NCBI GenBank assembly: GCA_002698985.1
Contig: PAAY01000062.1
Coordinates: 1 to 35,886, forward strand
Length of the DNA: 35,886 nt
Origin: Saprospirales bacterium
Lineage (GTDB): Bacteria > Bacteroidota > Bacteroidia > Chitinophagales > Saprospiraceae
Reading direction: 5' to 3'
This document shows positions 1,191 through 8,757 of this stretch, piece after piece (the first letter of the stretch is position 1; each line of letters opens with the position of its first letter). The notes under the pieces were generated by a model. It saw only the letters and a list, made by a program, of their open reading frames with translations. It did no database searches and was not told where the DNA came from. A program made the position numbers and the translations under genes.

Positions 1191-2252
1191 ATGTTCAGAA
1201 AACACCTGATTAACGTGAAAAACCCACTGTTTCTTTTGCTGATCCTGATTGCACTGACGCAGGCATGTGAGTGCGGCAAAGGTAAAGATATTCCCGACGT
1301 GAGCAGCGTGGAAGCCGATGTGGAAATCAAGCGTTTCGAGCAGGACCTTTTCAATGCTGACACGCTCAACTTCGGCGCTGCCCTCCGCACCCTGGAACAG
1401 CAGTATCCTGAATTTGGCGACATCTTCTTCAACCAGATCATGGGGGCCAATGATCCCCGCATTGCGCCGCAGGGCGCCGAAGAATACATCGAAGGTTTCA
1501 TCACCGACGAGCGGGTACGCAAGCTCTACGACACAGTTCAGGTTGTATATCCGGACCTGGAGTGGTTTGAAAAAGACATCGAGCAGGCCATCAGATTTTA
1601 CCGGTACTATTTTCCGGAACAAACCCCGCCAAAAGAGGTGGTCACCTACGTGTCTGAATACACCATTGCCGGGTTCCTCTACGGCGACAACGACATTGCT
1701 GTGGGACTCGATTTCTTTCTTGGCGAGGACTACCCTTACCTGCTTTACAACCCCGGCAACCCAAATTTCTCAAAGTACCTCACCCGCACCTACAACAAAG
1801 ACCACCTGGTCATGCGCTGTGTGAAACTGCTGGTACAGGACCTCCTCGGCGAGACCAGCGGCACACGGATGATTGACCACATGATACACACCGGCAAAGA
1901 GCTATACATCATGGAACAGCTGCTGCCATACAGCCCCGACACGGTGATTTTTGAATTCTCAAAACCGCAGCTGGACTGGTGCCGTGACAATGAGGCCAAC
2001 CTGTGGGCCTATTTTCTGACGGAAAACCTGCTTTATTCTTCCGACTGGGGCAAGTTCAGGAAATACGTGGAATACAGCCCTAACTCCCCGGGCATGCCAG
2101 ACGAAGCACCCGGCCGCACCGGCTCTTACCTGGGCTACAAAATCGTGCAAGCCTACATGGAGCGCAATCCCGAAACCACCCTTCAGCAATTGATTGAAAT
2201 GGAAGATGCCCAGGCGATTGTGGAGGGGGCGCGATTCAAGCCATCGCGGTAG
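1191..2252 (+). CDS. gldB: Gliding-motility lipoprotein GldB
   Basis: The 353-residue protein carries a lipoprotein signal with the lipobox ending at Cys26 (ALTQAC), so it should be anchored in the envelope. The body matches my memory of GldB: an early segment VEIKRFEQDLF, then YPEFGDIFF, and a central VGLDFFLGEDYP block. GldB is one of the lipoproteins needed for gliding and T9SS-dependent surface adhesin movement in Bacteroidota; its biochemical activity is not established. No other gld or spr gene is adjacent here, so the gene is separated from partners such as gldC. A TAnnTTTG box lies upstream, and the stop codon runs directly into a heptamer repeat tract. Confidence 0.85.
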   Translation: MFRKHLINVKNPLFLLLILIALTQACECGKGKDIPDVSSVEADVEIKRFEQDLFNADTLNFGAALRTLEQQYPEFGDIFFNQIMGANDPRIAPQGAEEYIEGFITDERVRKLYDTVQVVYPDLEWFEKDIEQAIRFYRYYFPEQTPPKEVVTYVSEYTIAGFLYGDNDIAVGLDFFLGEDYPYLLYNPGNPNFSKYLTRTYNKDHLVMRCVKLLVQDLLGETSGTRMIDHMIHTGKELYIMEQLLPYSPDTVIFEFSKPQLDWCRDNEANLWAYFLTENLLYSSDWGKFRKYVEYSPNSPGMPDEAPGRTGSYLGYKIVQAYMERNPETTLQQLIEMEDAQAIVEGARFKPSR

Positions 2253-2328
2253 TGTAGAGTGTAGGGTGTAGGGTGTAGAGTTTAGAGTGTAGGGTTTAGG
2301 GTTTAGGGTTTAGAGTGTAGAGTTTGGG
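2252..2328. repeat. Heptanucleotide tandem array, consensus GTKTAGR
   Basis: Eleven consecutive 7-bp units can be read without a break: GTGTAGA, GTGTAGG (x2), GTGTAGA, GTTTAGA, GTGTAGG, GTTTAGG (x2), GTTTAGA, GTGTAGA and GTTTGGG. The first unit starts on the last base of the gldB stop codon. Variation is confined almost entirely to the third and seventh positions. The GTTTAGG units are a rotation of the plant-type telomere heptamer TTTAGGG, which is probably coincidental. Confidence 0.95.
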
Positions 2329-2341
2329 AGCGTGCTAGCCC

Positions 2342-2369
2342 TTTCATCCCTCATCCCTCATCCCTCATC
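2342..2369. repeat. Second heptamer array, CCTCATC units
   Basis: Three perfect CCTCATC units (2349-2369) preceded by one variant (TTTCATC) form a second tandem array with the same 7-bp period. It begins 14 bp after the first array and ends about 10 bp before the stop codon of the desaturase gene, which arrives from the opposite strand. Confidence 0.9.
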
Positions 2370-2379
2370 CATAAATCTC

Positions 2380-3369
2380 TCATGCTCCGGCAAGTGCCCC
2401 CTGCTGGCGTGTGTTTTCCCGGGGCTGGCGTTTCACGCGGCTGTACAATGAGTACTCCGGATTGGTGATGAATTCCCACATCAGCTTTGACCAGGATGGG
2501 TGCGATTTGAGGGTGTCGTAGTACTCCGGAGCTATTTTGCGGAGCTCTGTCAGTTTGTTCCAGGGTATTGAAGGGAAATCGTGGTGCTCCACATGGTAGC
2601 CGATGTTGAGGCCTATCTTGTTGATGGGACCGTAGTAGCTGTAGGTTTCCTGGTCGGGATCGAGGGTGTAGTGCTCCTGTATCCAGCGGGCGCCGAGGGG
2701 ATGGAAGCCGAGAGCAAACATCATGGACATGAACAGGTAGAACAAGGCATTCCAACCGAAGAAATACACCATTGCGAAGTCGAAGAGGAACACAGCTGCG
2801 ATGTTGATGTACATCCAGGTGGTCCAGGTATTCACCTTGTTGAGTCGGAAAGCGCGATAGATCTGGAAGACGGGAAAGAGCGCCAGCCAGATGGCTTTGA
2901 GCACGGAGTTGTTGCCCACGAGGCGTGCCTCCCAGGGTGAGGGCAGGTCGGCGTCGAGTTCCTCGTCACCCATGTAAGAGTGGTGCTTGAGGTGGAAGGT
3001 GGAAAAGGCACTGGCACCCGGCACCGTGTTTGGCAGATCGGCCAGAATGAGGCAAAGACGATTTGCCAGGCGGTTTTTGAAAATGAGGTTGTGGGTGGCC
3101 TCGTGGATAATGGCGTAAAGCGGATGTGTCAGGAATGCTCCCACGAAATAGGCCACCAGGAGGCTCAGCCACCAGTACTGCTCAAAACCCAGCCTGCCCA
3201 GCCAGGCAGCGATGGCAACCTGAGAGGCAACCAGAAATAGCAGGATGAAAAAAGTATTCGGATTGCGACCGATGAGGTTCTTGATCTGCGGGTATTTGCG
3301 GAGGATTTCAACTGCACGCTGCTGGTGCGGTTGATTGGCCGTGGAGAAATAAAAATTGGACTGGCCCAT
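2380..3369 (-). CDS. Sphingolipid delta-4 desaturase-like (DEGS-type) membrane desaturase
   Basis: This 329-residue membrane-bound desaturase has the three His boxes: HEATH at 89-93, HLKHH at 126-130 and HVEHH at 259-263, with hydrophobic segments near 40-80 and 185-222. It resembles eukaryotic dihydroceramide delta-4 desaturases over nearly its full length. Similar blocks are an N-terminal QPH..R..EILRKYP.IK segment, ETYSYYGP.N before the last box, EHHDFPSIP, RKIAPEYYD, and a tail of the form YSR.KR. Comparison is from memory of human DEGS1, not an alignment. Bacteroidota make dihydroceramide lipids, so the inferred reaction is introduction of the 4,5-trans double bond into a sphinganine-type base. 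Another acyl-lipid substrate remains possible. The gene is monocistronic with its own TAnnTTTG box. Confidence 0.8.
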   Translation of the reverse strand: MGQSNFYFSTANQPHQQRAVEILRKYPQIKNLIGRNPNTFFILLFLVASQVAIAAWLGRLGFEQYWWLSLLVAYFVGAFLTHPLYAIIHEATHNLIFKNRLANRLCLILADLPNTVPGASAFSTFHLKHHSYMGDEELDADLPSPWEARLVGNNSVLKAIWLALFPVFQIYRAFRLNKVNTWTTWMYINIAAVFLFDFAMVYFFGWNALFYLFMSMMFALGFHPLGARWIQEHYTLDPDQETYSYYGPINKIGLNIGYHVEHHDFPSIPWNKLTELRKIAPEYYDTLKSHPSWSKLMWEFITNPEYSLYSRVKRQPRENTRQQGALAGA

Positions 3370-3425
3370 TTTGTATTGTGCTTATTGGTGAAGTGTGTAA
3401 GAGCAAATTGAATAGAAAACAGCAG

Positions 3426-3433
3426 CAAATATA
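3426..3433 (-). promoter_or_regulatory. Candidate -7 box for the desaturase gene
   Basis: Read on the minus strand this is TATATTTG, an exact TAnnTTTG match, about 55 bp before the desaturase start codon. No TTG -33 box is seen at normal spacing. Confidence 0.4.
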
Positions 3434-3552
3434 GACGCTGGCTTTTGCATTGAGCCCTTTTTGCCGAAGGAAAGCGGCTGGTGGCTCATCTTGCTTCCGG
3501 GCGTGTGACCGCCGGAGGCAGTACATCGGGCGTTGTATTGGGAAAGAAGCGG

Positions 3553-4125
3553 TCAGTTTTTGATGCGTTCGAAAACGGGGCGGCCGGTGAGCATGTCGGT
3601 GCCGTGGAGGTCCACATGGAAAACTTTGGGCCAGGTGCCCGAGTTGTCGGCATAGACCCAGATGTAGTCGAGGCGAGCGTATTTGCCGTCGATGGTAAGG
3701 GTTGCCACGGGCTTGCCGCTGCTGTCTTTGTGGAGGTGGATCTTTCTGCCATCCCAGGCTGTGAGGGTCACCCAGTAGGATCCGTTCTTTTTGTCCCGTT
3801 TTGCGTTGTAACCGTAGGCAAAGGTGCGTTGCAACCAGGTGAGTTCTTTTCGTTCTCCGGTGGAGCCATAGCGCAGCCAATAAGCATCGATGGGGTCTGA
3901 CTGAAAGCTGCCGTCAGCATTCAGTTTTGCATCATAGACGATGGTGTTCTGGTTGAGGTTCCGCTGGATGAAAAAGAGGCGGTTTTTGGTTTTCGGAGGA
4001 GTTTTGTAATGGGCCGGTCGCCCGTTGGGCAATGCAGGCACGTCGGTAGCCGCAGTGCTTTGTGCCTGCCCTGGTGTTGCCCGAAGGGCGAGGAAAACGA
4101 GAAAAAAGAGGACAGTTCTGATCAT
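3553..4125 (-). CDS. DUF4833-like secreted protein
   Basis: The 190-residue protein starts with a signal peptide cleaved near residue 21 (GQAQ). Its core has the sequence features of the DUF4833 family: LFFIQRNLNQNTIVYDA, DPIDAYWLRYG and a charged, aromatic-rich beta-strand region to the end. The ATG at 4125 is chosen because it begins the signal peptide and overlaps the stop of the upstream phosphatidyltransferase gene in an ATGA junction (4122-4125), a sign of translational coupling. The open frame continues 5' to 4482, but that part lies inside the upstream gene and looks non-coding. No function is established for the family. The coupling suggests a role in the same lipid pathway, acting outside the cytoplasm. 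Confidence 0.75.
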   Translation of the reverse strand: MIRTVLFFLVFLALRATPGQAQSTAATDVPALPNGRPAHYKTPPKTKNRLFFIQRNLNQNTIVYDAKLNADGSFQSDPIDAYWLRYGSTGERKELTWLQRTFAYGYNAKRDKKNGSYWVTLTAWDGRKIHLHKDSSGKPVATLTIDGKYARLDYIWVYADNSGTWPKVFHVDLHGTDMLTGRPVFERIKN

Positions 4126-4826
4126 TGCTTTTCCAATTGTTTTTTGCTGTAGAGCAACCTTCTGATGGCAGTGAGGTTGGTGAACACGGCCAAAAACACA
4201 ATGGGGAGTGTAAAGACCGAGATGGTTTCGAAAACCGGTATGGGCCACCAGGGTTTCACGATGCGGATGTCGTTGCCGACGGTTGCGGAGAAAATGCCGC
4301 AACCAATGGCCGCCAGCCCAATGATGATGACTCGCTCGGGGCGTTGCATCATGCCCACATCGGCTTTGACACCAAGGCTCTCGGCCCGGGCCCTGATGTA
4401 GCTCACCATGATGGAGCCGATCATGGCGATGAAGGCGAAAAGCGAACTGAGAAAGTAGTTGTGTGCAACGAGGTACCAGCAAATACCAAGAAACATGATG
4501 AGTTCGCTGTAGCGATCGAGTACGGAATCGTACAATGCGCCAAAGGATGTGCTGTTGTTGCTCACCCTGGCCAGCCGGCCGTCAATCATATCGAAAAGCC
4601 CGGCTAGCAGGATGACCACCCCAGCCCAACCGATGTAAGAGTGGTCGTTGCGCAGGCCTTTTTCGGCTCCGTAAATAAAAATGCCTGCAGCAAGGGCATT
4701 GATCAGCAGGCCGATGGTGGTAATGGTATTGGGGCTCACCTTCCAGCGCACCAGCAGGTTGATCAGCGGGTGGATGACCTTGTAAACAAGTGGCTGTCCG
4801 TATTTCTTCAGAAGGTTTTCGCTCAT
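4122..4826 (-). CDS. CDP-alcohol phosphatidyltransferase family protein
   Basis: This 234-residue polytopic membrane enzyme has a complete CDP-alcohol phosphatidyltransferase signature. D79, D82, G83, A86, R87, G96, D100 and D104 fit D-x2-DG-x2-AR-x8-G-x3-D-x3-D. The family transfers a phosphatidyl group from CDP-diacylglycerol to an alcohol at the inner membrane. The substrate cannot be read from the motif; glycerol-3-phosphate, serine or inositol phosphate are all possible, and inositol-phosphate-type enzymes occur in sphingolipid-making Bacteroidota. It is the first gene of a two-gene unit with the DUF4833 gene, overlapping it by 4 bp. A TAnnTTTG box stands about 80 bp upstream. Confidence 0.85.
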   Translation of the reverse strand: MSENLLKKYGQPLVYKVIHPLINLLVRWKVSPNTITTIGLLINALAAGIFIYGAEKGLRNDHSYIGWAGVVILLAGLFDMIDGRLARVSNNSTSFGALYDSVLDRYSELIMFLGICWYLVAHNYFLSSLFAFIAMIGSIMVSYIRARAESLGVKADVGMMQRPERVIIIGLAAIGCGIFSATVGNDIRIVKPWWPIPVFETISVFTLPIVFLAVFTNLTAIRRLLYSKKQLEKQ

Positions 4827-4906
4827 GCTTTGATGGTTGAACCGTGTGATTTCGTCAGCAGGGACTATGCCCTGCCTGCCTGGTTCTCAGCGAATAAAAC
4901 TGGTTG

Positions 4907-4914
4907 CAAAAGTA
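4907..4914 (-). promoter_or_regulatory. Candidate -7 box for the phosphatidyltransferase unit
   Basis: The minus strand reads TACTTTTG, identical to the candidate box upstream of gldB. It lies about 80 bp before the start codon of the phosphatidyltransferase gene. No convincing -33 TTG is visible. Confidence 0.4.
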
Positions 4915-4945
4915 GGTACTTAGCTTTTGATTGAACCGTGCCCGC

Positions 4946-7525
4946 TCAAAACTCCACAGCTACCTTCATCCTGAGGCCCATTCCTTTCACGCCAAACATG
5001 TAAGGCACATCCGGATTGTCGAGATAGGTCAGGCGGCGCACCACATCGAAGCGCACAAACTTTAGGATATTGGCAACACCCACGCTGGCTTCCATGTAGG
5101 GTTTGCTGTCAAGGGTGTAGGTGATGGAGTTGCCCTCATTGTTTCTCAGAAATTGGAGCAACTCCGGGTTTTTGTTAGGGTTGTTGGCATCACTGAGCCT
5201 GCCGTAAACACCTTTGAAAGTGATTACTTCACGCAGTTTTGCCTTGCGCAACAAGGGTATTTTGTTGAAGATGAATCCATTGAAAAAGTGCTCGATGCTC
5301 AAGAAAGCATACTTGTCGGCAGCAAATTCCTGGTAATTCATCAGGTTAAAAGCTCCTGTGCGATAGGCAAAAGATTGGTTGGCCCGTGGAAGGTGCAGCA
5401 AGAAGTACGGCACGCCATTGCCCCAGATTTGCCCAACCTCTGTTTCAAAACGCATGGTTCCGAAGAAGGAGAAATAAAAGCGCTTGAAGATGTTCAGCGA
5501 TGCTTTCTGGTAGCTGTAATCACCGCCCAGCCAGTCTTTAAATCCTGCTGCCAGTTTCAGGGTGAATACCGGATAACGGTTGTAAATAGGTACCCGGTAG
5601 CTGCGGCCCTGGAGATACTGCTCGTTGGGAGCGAAGCGCATCTGCAGGCTGAGTTCGCTGGTGGTTATTTCTGGCAAACTGGTCAGTTCCTGGGTTTCAG
5701 GATCGTAATAATCAAAACGGAAAGTACCAACCGGTTGATGACGGGTATTGTCAAACACGAGGTCCCAGGACAGGTTGTTTTCCAACTCGAGGAAGTACTG
5801 AAGCTTGTACCTGTCCACCAGGGTCATCCTGGAAGTGGAGCCCCGTTGGAAGGAGATGAAAAAGTTATCCGTGCTGGTAAAGCGAAGGTACTGCCCAACT
5901 AGGTTGACTTCGTGCTGGTAGAAAATTCGGAAGAAGTGCTTTGGATTGCTTTTGAAATCATCCCGGAAAGAGTACAGCAGCGAACCGCCGTATTTGAATT
6001 CCTGGTCTTTGAAGCCATAAGCCACCAGCCCGGCCAACGACAATTTGGGATGAAACTTCAAATTTGTTTCCCCGCCAAATTTTACCCGGAAGCCCTCTAC
6101 ATCATTGAAGCTGTAGAATGAACCGATTGGCCCCATGTCGAAGGCGCCAAAGGCCTTGTATCCGGTAAACGCCAGGGTGAGAATATCCATGGCTGTGCGG
6201 AAAGCCGGTGCTTTCTGGAGGGTGTCTATCATCTCATAAATGCCCTCCTCTTGATGACTGAGTGTGTCGTGCCGGGCCTGTTGCCAGAATTCATCATCCT
6301 TTTCATAGGCATCTTTGGCGGCGATTACGTTTTCAGTGCCGGCATACAGCTTTTCCTCCCGTGGTGTATTGAAAATGTAATTCTTGTAAGAGACTGTTCT
6401 GGTTCCGTAAATGCCCGTTCCTTTTTTGAAGAGGCCAAAGTCAATTTTCAACTGGTCTTTGGTCATGACCATGACGCCGTCTTTGCGCTCGAATTCCTGT
6501 AAAAGATTTAGGTCGTGCACAAAGTTGACGTTGATCTGGCGGGTAATGCCCAGGTCGGCTTTTATCAAGGCATAAGTTGAATCCTTGGTGATGAAGAGAT
6601 CACCCTTGAAGGCAATGTTCTGGTTGTTCACCGGCATGAAGGAGATCTTGTTGCAGGGGATGCCATTGACAGCTGCAGTAGTATCAACCAGGTAAAAACG
6701 GTAGTAGGTATTGGCCAGAGGGTTCAGCGGGCTCATGAACGGCAGGTCGAGCAAGCGGATGTTGTCGTCGTAAATGTTGACATTCTGGTACAGCACATCC
6801 ATCATGGTAGTAAAGTCTTCCAGGTCGATGTAATCCTGGATGCCGGTAACCTTCACGCCCTGGCGGTATTCTTTTTTGCTTTCGGGTTCCTTGCGGTAAT
6901 AAACTTTGGCCGCTGTTTCCTGAATAAAGAAAGGCAGGAAAGGTTTTCCGTTGAGGTCGGAAGTATCTACGTAGTCAAAAATGAACTGGAACTTCTTCAT
7001 GGTCCGGCGCTTTTTCAGCTTTTCCGGATCGAAGTTGTTCAGGTCGAACTGAATCTTCTCGTATTTGTCGAACTCATAGAAATCGAGTGCTTCCAGCCTG
7101 TTTTTGTCTTTGTTGGCAATCACCTTTTTCATGATCTCCACAGCCGGATTGCCTTTGCGCTTGTACCCTTTTCTTTTGGCCTTGATTTCAACGGTTTGCA
7201 GGCTGAGGGCAAAGGGAACCAAAGCCACATTGACTACCTGCCGTTCAAATTTGGTGATCGGAAGTTTTTGAGACTGATATCCAACGTAAGAAATGATAAT
7301 GGAATCAGTGGCCCATTTTGATTCCAGCACGAAAGAGCCGTCGAAATCCGAGGTAGTTCCTATGGAGGTATTGACGAAGGCTATGTTTACGAGCGGAAGT
7401 GGTTCTTTGGTCTCAGCATCGATGACTGTACCCTTGACGACAGTCATCTTCTGGGCCGAAACAGAAACAGCTGCGACGATCAGGAACAGTAAAGAAAGAA
7501 AAGTTTTCAGCTTTGTCAGGTGCAT
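4946..7525 (-). CDS. DUF5686 and carboxypeptidase-regulatory-like domain outer-membrane protein
   Basis: The 859-residue protein has a signal peptide (about residues 1-24, ending VSAQ) and a carboxypeptidase-regulatory-like beta-sandwich at about 28-110 (KGTVIDAETKEPLPLVNIAF, SYVGYQ). A long region follows with the LDFYEFDKYEKIQFDL and FDYVDTSDLNGKPFLPFFIQET segments characteristic of DUF5686. The rest is aromatic-rich beta structure ending in Phe, consistent with an outer-membrane barrel. The N-domain is shared with SusC/TonB-dependent receptors, but no TonB plug is seen. The family is widespread in Bacteroidota and its function is unknown. The gene appears monocistronic, with a 345-bp gap upstream. 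Confidence 0.85.
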   Translation of the reverse strand: MHLTKLKTFLSLLFLIVAAVSVSAQKMTVVKGTVIDAETKEPLPLVNIAFVNTSIGTTSDFDGSFVLESKWATDSIIISYVGYQSQKLPITKFERQVVNVALVPFALSLQTVEIKAKRKGYKRKGNPAVEIMKKVIANKDKNRLEALDFYEFDKYEKIQFDLNNFDPEKLKKRRTMKKFQFIFDYVDTSDLNGKPFLPFFIQETAAKVYYRKEPESKKEYRQGVKVTGIQDYIDLEDFTTMMDVLYQNVNIYDDNIRLLDLPFMSPLNPLANTYYRFYLVDTTAAVNGIPCNKISFMPVNNQNIAFKGDLFITKDSTYALIKADLGITRQINVNFVHDLNLLQEFERKDGVMVMTKDQLKIDFGLFKKGTGIYGTRTVSYKNYIFNTPREEKLYAGTENVIAAKDAYEKDDEFWQQARHDTLSHQEEGIYEMIDTLQKAPAFRTAMDILTLAFTGYKAFGAFDMGPIGSFYSFNDVEGFRVKFGGETNLKFHPKLSLAGLVAYGFKDQEFKYGGSLLYSFRDDFKSNPKHFFRIFYQHEVNLVGQYLRFTSTDNFFISFQRGSTSRMTLVDRYKLQYFLELENNLSWDLVFDNTRHQPVGTFRFDYYDPETQELTSLPEITTSELSLQMRFAPNEQYLQGRSYRVPIYNRYPVFTLKLAAGFKDWLGGDYSYQKASLNIFKRFYFSFFGTMRFETEVGQIWGNGVPYFLLHLPRANQSFAYRTGAFNLMNYQEFAADKYAFLSIEHFFNGFIFNKIPLLRKAKLREVITFKGVYGRLSDANNPNKNPELLQFLRNNEGNSITYTLDSKPYMEASVGVANILKFVRFDVVRRLTYLDNPDVPYMFGVKGMGLRMKVAVEF

Positions 7526-7869: not shown

Positions 7870-8757
7870 TCAGGCGGTAATGGAATCCAGAAAATGCTTC
7901 AAGCTGTCCAGGTCTGCGAAGGAATTTACATTATCCGGAAGGGCAAGGCCTTCGGCAGCCACCTGGTATCCACTCACCAGTACGGAAGCATCTGCGGCCA
8001 GGTCAGAAAGGCTGTTCAGGTACTGCTCCACCGGCACATCGGTAAAGGTTTCGGACAAGATGGTGAACAGGTATTGGGGTTTGTGAATCCTGAAGGCATC
8101 CTCGACGTCCATCAGGCCCGTGTCTTCTCCGATGTTGATGGGCAGGATGCCCCTGCGCCTCATCAGCAACTGCACCAGCAAGATGCTCAGTTCCTGTTGT
8201 TCTCCCTTCGGTAAATACAGCAGGCATTTGGCGGCATGTGCGTTGGATGGCAAAGCCGTTTTTTCGATCTCGGCAATCAGCTTGTTCCGGACCAATTGGG
8301 TGAAAAAATTCTCCTGCACGGGTTTGACCGCACCGGTCAGCCACATGAGGCTCAGCTTTTCAAGGAAAGGGTATATGACCTCCAGCAGGGTTTCTTCCAG
8401 GCCATTTATGGCCGCGTAGTGGTTGAATACCGTGTTGAATTTGTACTCGTCCATCTCCACAAAGGCGAGCGTCAGCAAATTCAAACTGGTGTCATGGCCG
8501 AGCTTGATCTGTGAAATGCGCTCGACCTCTGCACCGAGTTCCTCCAGGCTCATCTTCGCAATCTTTGAAATGCGGACGCCGCGCTTGTTCAGCAGAACTA
8601 CGTTGAGCAGGTATTGGAGGTCTTCATCTTCGTAATACCGTATCCTGGTATCGGTGCGTTTTGGATGCAATAGCCCATAGCGCTGCTCCCACATCCTGAT
8701 GGTGTGTGCTTTAATGCCGGACAGGCGCTCCAGATCACCGATTGAATAAATGGCCAT
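7870..8757 (-). CDS. MerR-type regulator with CarH-like cobalamin-binding fold, ligand His absent
   Basis: The 295-residue protein has a MerR winged-helix domain at about 2-70 (YSIGDL, KAHTIRMWEQRYGLL, RYY), a helical bundle at about 85-170, and a Rossmann-like domain of B12-binding type at about 175-290 (LPKGEQQEL, then LLMRRRG and NIGEDT). In the AdoCbl photoreceptor CarH the ligand lies in an E-x-H motif; here that position is Gln188 (E186-Q-Q). The helical-bundle signature W-x9-EH reads W139-x9-E149-N150. The fold therefore looks CarH-like, but the canonical cobalamin ligand and the second conserved His are missing. It may be a cofactor-independent or differently liganded regulator. Targets cannot be inferred; no carotenoid gene is nearby. 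Confidence 0.8.
   Translation of the reverse strand: MAIYSIGDLERLSGIKAHTIRMWEQRYGLLHPKRTDTRIRYYEDEDLQYLLNVVLLNKRGVRISKIAKMSLEELGAEVERISQIKLGHDTSLNLLTLAFVEMDEYKFNTVFNHYAAINGLEETLLEVIYPFLEKLSLMWLTGAVKPVQENFFTQLVRNKLIAEIEKTALPSNAHAAKCLLYLPKGEQQELSILLVQLLMRRRGILPINIGEDTGLMDVEDAFRIHKPQYLFTILSETFTDVPVEQYLNSLSDLAADASVLVSGYQVAAEGLALPDNVNSFADLDSLKHFLDSITA

Follow-up and report, generated by a model that had tools for sequence, protein, structure and literature searches.

DES, a 329-residue protein of the sphingolipid delta-4 desaturase family encoded by an uncultured Saprospirales bacterium, most likely desaturates sphingoid bases, as judged from its family, from its co-occurrence with serine palmitoyltransferase (SPT) and from the cluster linkage of both genes in relatives. 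We give a probability of roughly 0.78 to the reading that the product of the DES gene is a di-iron desaturase of the DES/DEGS family that makes 4-sphingenine (ceramide-type) bases. The gene lies in a stretch of 35,886 nucleotides (contig PAAY01000062.1 of assembly GCA_002698985.1), hereafter the window. Sphingolipids of Bacteroidota are usually described as dihydroceramides, and the DES family introduces the hallmark double bond of ceramide in animals and plants. A bacterial DES gene inside an SPT cluster leads to the prediction that bacteria make ceramide-type (4-ene) bases, and it names the genes concerned. If true, this matters for environmental lipidomics, where 4-sphingenine serves as a marker of eukaryotes, for the exchange of sphingolipids between bacteria and their hosts, and for the origin of the eukaryotic ceramide desaturase. 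The DES family has a Pfam entry and many bacterial members, so the window gene adds one more to a known family; the interest lies in the linkage to SPT and in the predicted lipid.

The open reading frame of DES runs from 3369 to 2380 on the minus strand and opens with an ATG. Membership of the family is demonstrated by two domains found in a Pfam scan: an N-terminal Lipid_DES domain (PF08557; residues 3-38, 3256..3363, minus strand) with 45.5 bits against a cut-off of 23 (5e-12), and an FA_desaturase domain (PF00487; residues 66-284) with 97.5 bits against a cut-off of 29.7 (1.4e-27). Both domains, their order and the three His boxes are shared with the eukaryotic DES/DEGS enzymes; unlike these, the window protein has a bacterial host, a gene-cluster context in some of its relatives, a predicted activity, and an identity of about 37% to an approximate human DEGS1 sequence. 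Lipid_DES exceeds its cut-off in all eight DES proteins scanned with Pfam. Its single match in the own genome, together with its absence from 14 well-known control genomes (0/14), indicates that the DES match is above chance. FA_desaturase gives four matches in the own genome, three of them over the cut-off, DES included. No NCBIfam model fits DES: the one match, to beta-carotene hydroxylase, scores 26.7 bits where the cut-off is 475.

The earlier note on this DNA had assigned the protein to the family from its His boxes and a series of conserved blocks, every one of which is present in the translation, and the profile scan has now added the Lipid_DES domain that it had proposed to look for. 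The blocks read QPHQQRAVEILRKYPQIK (from residue 13), QETYSYYGPIN (240), EHHDFPSIP (261), RKIAPEYYD (277) and YSRVKR (309), of which ETYSYYGP, EHHDFP and EYYD are presumably the blocks of DEGS1. The YSR.KR motif is thus confirmed, but it is not strictly terminal, as 15 residues lie beyond it. With a GC content of 54.5%, DES resembles its neighbours (48-55%), so there is no sign of a recent foreign gene or a contaminant.

The His boxes are HEATHN at residues 89-94 (HEATH at 89-93; 3088..3105), HLKHH at residues 126-130 (2980..2994) and HVEHH at residues 259-263 (2581..2595), all on the minus strand. Two 24-row alignments (A1 and A2) were built, each from the window protein and 23 bacterial homologues, whose identity to it is 32-80%, apart from a single row at 95%. 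In both of them, H89, H93, H126, H129, H130, H259, H262 and H263 are invariant, and H223 and H233 show no variation in A1 and very little in A2. The AlphaFold2 model of DES (mean pLDDT 90.2, pTM 0.88) and its fold matches are consistent with a membrane di-iron desaturase, although they do not amount to proof. A Foldseek search against the PDB gives modest matches at most: the top ones are chains of two FtsHi motor complexes (E 2e-5 and 3.6e-4, 14% and 12% identity), and AlkB (E 3.9e-3) and human stearoyl-CoA desaturase (E 0.095) follow as weak ones. The search of viral folds gave six matches at E<=0.001, which are desaturase-like proteins of giant viruses with 12-14% identity, and no sphingolipid desaturase by name among the best 50 matches. 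By sequence, no DES relative was found in the PDB, where two chance matches were obtained (E 0.52 and 0.59), and none of the 15 stretches that fit a pattern in a scan of viral contigs with alignment A1 encodes a relative.

A DES-family enzyme might also be bifunctional or hydroxylating (DEGS2-like), and yield 4-hydroxysphinganine (phytosphingosine-type) bases instead of, or besides, the 4-ene. C4-hydroxylases belong to the same protein family, and sequence alone does not discriminate between these activities; such an outcome is unlikely, albeit with some weight. For the desaturation proposed here as the preferred reading, the substrate would come from a sphingolipid pathway, whose genes are present.

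The search for sphingolipid synthesis genes elsewhere in the genome, which the earlier note had recommended, returned SPT together with an inositol-phosphoceramide-synthase homologue. In the own genome (4.83 Mb in 102 contigs, 95.5% complete), a search with the PLP acyltransferase family TIGR01825 recovers four loci. One of them encodes SPT (P0002; 681.1 bits on NF047600 against a cut-off of 640); among solved structures, its nearest relatives are SPTs as well (515 and 514 bits). Co-oriented beside it (L069) are the genes for a phosphoinositol dihydroceramide synthase (IPCS) homologue, with 340.2 bits on NF052609, below the cut-off of 480, a GNAT protein and a short-chain reductase (SDR) of the NAD-dependent epimerase/dehydratase type. 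DES and SPT are located on different contigs. The protein P0005 is a homologue of cysteate-C-fatty-acyltransferase (CapA; best match PDB 28eh, 634 bits), and its presence suggests that the organism may also make sulfonolipids, whereas P0007 is a glycine C-acetyltransferase (699 bits against a cut-off of 493). The fourth member of the PLP acyltransferase family, P0006 (L050:1429-2706), has no NCBIfam family over the cut-off. No myo-inositol-phosphate synthase (MIPS, PF01658) was found in this 95.5% complete genome, which makes the inositol head group uncertain, and a search run without a positive control found in it no fatty-acid hydroxylase of the type encoded next to DES in the relative L026.

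Across genomes, DES and SPT occur together. In a set of 60 genomes (the own genome and 59 relatives, none dropped), DES was defined by PF08557 and SPT by NF047600 at >=467 bits, the next match standing at 379 bits. DES is present in 20 of them and SPT in 22: both in 19, DES only in one (G032, 89% complete), SPT only in three (G013, of 78% completeness, G028 and G029) and neither in 37 (Fisher p 1.4e-11). By genus (46), the corresponding counts are 6, 1, 2 and 37 (p 2e-5). An order-wide sample of 248 genomes, with SPT taken at E<=1e-125, gives 48 genomes with both, 10 with DES only, 24 with SPT only and 166 with neither (p 2e-23), and 24, 3, 14 and 84 when counted by genus (125; p 6e-13). When the 12 genomes identified as also belonging to the 60-genome set are removed, the counts become 40, 10, 23 and 163 (p 9e-20), the last being an upper bound, as more shared genomes are possible among up to 170 unlisted ones. 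Kinship among genomes and genera is disregarded in all of these tests, which assume independent observations.

Some genomes count against the preferred reading. In the order sample, 58 genomes carry DES, and in 10 of these SPT is undetected at the threshold (G208, G448, G454, G484, G529, G582, G619, G629, G645 and G651); eight of the 10 are >=99% complete. One genus (g55) runs against the trend: its listed members comprise two with DES only (G208 and G629), four with SPT only (G440, G570, G601 and G631) and none with both. In a phylum sample of 395 genomes, Lipid_DES is found in 40 and matches to the SPT model at E<=1e-115 in 301; such a match is present in 34 of the 40 DES-positive genomes and missing at that threshold from six (G204, G208, G306, G428, G444 and G448). 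Among the SPT-model matches listed for the phylum, 18 are over the cut-off and the others score 482-526 bits, a range inseparable from paralogues, and the phylum-wide co-occurrence test was set aside as uninformative.

The same genomes bear on the question of whether DES acts instead on capnoid (sulfonolipid) bases supplied by CapA. Sulfonolipid (capnine) synthesis by CapA/SulA relies on an enzyme of the PLP superfamily to which SPT belongs, the own genome holds a clear CapA homologue, and the DES-positive genomes in which SPT is undetected would fit such a role. However, DES does not track CapA in the 60-genome set. Counted at E<=1e-100, CapA is present in 42 of the 60 genomes, with 13 holding both genes, 7 DES only, 29 CapA only and 11 neither (p 0.56, no association). 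Outside the own genus, CapA is found in 0 of 7 DES-positive genomes, as against 28 of 39 DES-negative ones, and the biosynthetic clusters that contain DES hold SPT. Activity on capnoid bases is, in our judgement, very unlikely.

Within the window, DES closes a run of four genes on the minus strand. In transcription order, these are a gene for a DUF5686 protein (7525-4946; PF18939, 210 bits), which heads the co-oriented run, a CDP-alcohol phosphotransferase gene (4826-4122), a DUF4833 gene (4125-3553) and DES (3369-2380). The phosphotransferase had been described as lying just downstream of DES, which is wrong with respect to transcription: it lies upstream, with the DUF4833 gene in between. 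It is likely a phosphatidylinositol-phosphate synthase (PIPS) of the BT_1523 type, with 335.2 bits on NF052561 (PIPSynBT1523), just under the cut-off of 350, and 64.9 bits on CDP-OH_P_transf; the PIPS homologue of L026 reaches 350.7 bits on NF052561. The stop codon of the PIPS gene and the start of the DUF4833 gene overlap by ATGA, the latter encoding a protein of 190 residues (PF16117, 120 bits for a slightly extended stretch, 3553-4137). The same gene order is found in L003, an independent assembly whose DES is 95% identical. DUF5686 lies upstream of DES in 11 mapped loci, of which nine are distinct: L070 is a repeat of L003 and L062 of L008, and the contigs of L003 and L008 are identical with contigs of genomes G003 and G002.

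The gap of 183 bases between the DUF4833 gene and DES contains one match to TANNTTTG, which we take to be the Bacteroidota-type -7 box motif. This match, TATATTTG (3426-3433, minus strand), lies 57-64 nucleotides upstream of the DES start. As the whole window holds 27 matches to TANNTTTG against 19.2 (sd 4.5) expected, a promoter box at this place is a weak possibility. A sigma-70 promoter scan of 2200-5000 found none, other promoter types being outside the scope of that scan. Further features of the region are a tandem array of 7 bases (consensus AGTGTAG, about 10 copies, 2251-2325) between the 3' ends of gldB and DES, followed, before the 3' end of DES, by about four perfect copies of TCATCCC (2344-2370). 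Upstream of the DUF5686 gene, a MerR-type regulator is encoded (7870-8757), with a weak B12-binding-like match of 17.5 bits, below the cut-off of 23.

In relatives, the linkage of DES to SPT is observed directly. Five contigs from Saprospiraceae (L004-L007 and L026) all hold a co-oriented run of DUF5686, PIPS, DES, FA_hydroxylase, IPCS, SPT and GNAT genes (5/5), which continues with SDR and then MIPS in four of the five, L004 ending inside the GNAT gene. The families of this cluster were checked on the proteins of L026, and those of L004-L007 were assigned by similarity. The DES proteins of these contigs are 56-57% identical to that of the window and form a sister clade in the tree (SH-aLRT 91); being close kin, they count as one linkage case. 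The other case comes from another genus of Saprospiraceae (L115 in G612 and L116 in G620), where the run consists of FA_hydroxylase, SPT, GNAT, DES and SDR. Here, SPT/GNAT and DES/SDR overlap by ATGA (4 bases) in both contigs, and the GNAT-DES junction is a 3-base gap in L115 and, taking the called start, a 32-base overlap in L116. Among the mapped neighbourhoods, the linkage is confined to the five-contig clade and this genus pair. In most of the mapped neighbourhoods, no SPT is labelled near DES within the fetched stretch (at most about 8-10 kb on each side), and the neighbourhoods outside Bacteroidota (L009-L025) contain no SPT homologue. DES is also encoded in L013, L017, L018 and L110, though it is unlabelled in the neighbourhood map, where an overlapping frame was chosen.

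The location of DES inside a sphingolipid gene cluster in some relatives suggests that bacteria with this arrangement probably make eukaryote-style ceramides. A link between such clusters and the window itself is provided by L131 (G015), where MIPS, SDR, GNAT, SPT, IPCS, DUF4833 and PIPS form a cluster apart from DES. The DUF4833 homologue of this cluster (82 bits) adjoins PIPS inside it, which ties the PIPS-DUF4833 pair of the window to sphingolipid clusters, and DUF4833 is a candidate accessory gene of inositol lipid synthesis. The FA_hydroxylase protein (PF04116) found near SPT and DES in two groups of Saprospiraceae has 208-220 residues (L026:8930-9592, 220 residues; L115:6882-7508), and is possibly a ceramide acyl 2-hydroxylase.

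In the proposed mechanism, the substrate would be made by SPT together with two linked enzymes, an acyltransferase of the GNAT type and an NAD-dependent SDR reductase, the roles of the last two being putative. DES, using O2 and electrons from a donor, would then take two hydrogens from the C4-C5 position of the sphinganine chain in (dihydro)ceramide, and the product would be 4-sphingenine-type bases; we infer which reaction takes place, where and with what geometry, whether the substrate is acylated, and the electron donor. The PIPS and IPC-synthase homologues would perhaps cap the ceramide with phosphoinositol. The first steps resemble the Spt-bCerS-CerR pathway of Caulobacter (PMC11087976), with which an SPT, an acyltransferase and a reductase are held in common, although the GNAT and SDR proteins described here are candidates by type rather than established bCerS/CerR orthologues. 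The accessible part of that text makes no mention of a desaturase.

The later steps resemble the inositol-lipid pathway of Bacteroides (BT_1522/1523/1525/1526, with the SPT BT_0870; PMC9246714), whose product is reported, in the accessible part of the paper, to be phosphoinositol dihydroceramide. Both systems have PIPS-type and IPC-synthase-type genes and SPT, the homologues of the own genome being under the respective cut-offs (PIPS 335/350 bits, IPCS 340/480 bits). What sets the relatives' cluster apart from the Bacteroides pathway is the addition of DES and of a gene of the fatty-acid-hydroxylase type; the own genome also differs in having no detected MIPS. The terms desaturase, double bond and unsaturat- are absent from the accessible text of PMC9246714.

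Unsaturated bacterial sphingoid bases are already suspected from ceramides of the sulfidic Black Sea. There, according to the accessible part of PMC11334938, a median of 46% of 57 ceramide structures carry one double-bond equivalent in the sphingoid base, and the authors argue for bacterial producers; this part names no gene for the double bond and does not contain the word desaturase. These ceramides come from oxygen-free water, however, where an O2-dependent DES would not be expected to work. Delta-4 sphingolipid desaturases have been reported to form their own cluster among membrane desaturases (PMC5037126, in part). As far as the accessible portions of the texts go, a desaturase is mentioned in PMC11765627 for DEGS1 and in the references, only once and in the reference list in PMC9278070, and desaturat- is absent from PMC10626005. 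Among open-licence papers in PubMed Central, judged by listings and the openings of abstracts, none was found that describes a characterised sphingolipid delta-4 desaturase from a bacterium, which is weak evidence of absence.

The scan of genome contigs for DES relatives yielded at least 26 loci, 25 of them matching at least 283 residues of the query, from Saprospiraceae, Bacteriovoracaceae, Rhodospirillaceae, Janthinobacterium, Sorangium, Myxococcales and others; the patterns used, built from one protein, recover part of the DES family. A profile of bacterial DES homologues gives 504.6 bits to the window protein, which is itself a profile member, and 19.8 bits to L111, the other full desaturase of the own genome, of the acyl-lipid type. 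An ordinary acyl-lipid or fatty-acid desaturase with a chance DES-like N-terminus, a notion that could draw on the large FA_desaturase superfamily to which DES belongs and on the order sample, where SPT is undetected in 10 of the 58 genomes with DES, is most improbable in view of the Lipid_DES domain in all eight proteins scanned, the separate family of L111 by profile, and the co-occurrence and cluster linkage of DES with SPT.

The earlier note had named placement with acyl-lipid desaturases in a tree as evidence against its proposal. The profile separates the two kinds of protein, whereas the rooted tree is saturated: rooting on L111 and L113 of the own genome was rejected, as both outgroup branches had a length of 10 and did not group. 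The suggestion that this organism may make ceramide-type bases is supported by the Lipid_DES domain and by SPT and the IPCS homologue in the genome, and is not contradicted by the profile scores.

In the quick, unrooted tree, from which repeat locus copies and the weak or partial L025, L027 and L084 were left out, the window protein falls inside a broad bacterial clade. A second bacterial clade consists of 15 rows (G001, G004-G011, G018, G050 and four f43 genomes) on one side of a branch with an SH-aLRT of 99. Its members score 56-69 bits on Lipid_DES, against 48 bits for the window protein in that comparison. The human DEGS1 sequence, used as an approximate query, is 36.7% identical to the window protein over 319 aligned columns and 43-49% identical to the second clade, which it joins as a long branch (16 rows, SH-aLRT 96), a position to be read as a lead only. 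The closeness of the window protein to the animal enzyme, which had been emphasised before, calls for correction, the second clade having the higher Lipid_DES scores and being nearer to the approximate human sequence.

A broader picture may be outlined, tentatively and with the odds clearly against it. Some Saprospiraceae would possess a eukaryote-style route in one cluster, where DES would provide 4-sphingenine, the FA_hydroxylase possibly a 2-hydroxylated acyl chain, and PIPS, IPC synthase and MIPS an inositol-phosphate head. Most of the DES family would then be bacterial, its members spread over Bacteroidota, Myxococcota, Bdellovibrionota and Pseudomonadota, and the DEGS enzymes of eukaryotes would have arisen inside this bacterial diversity, beside the second clade, which is present in the own genus. 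A separate observation concerns G012, a genome of the own genus, which encodes a second, divergent DES homologue (L063, G012:C92) that groups with Pseudomonadota and Myxococcota on a long branch.
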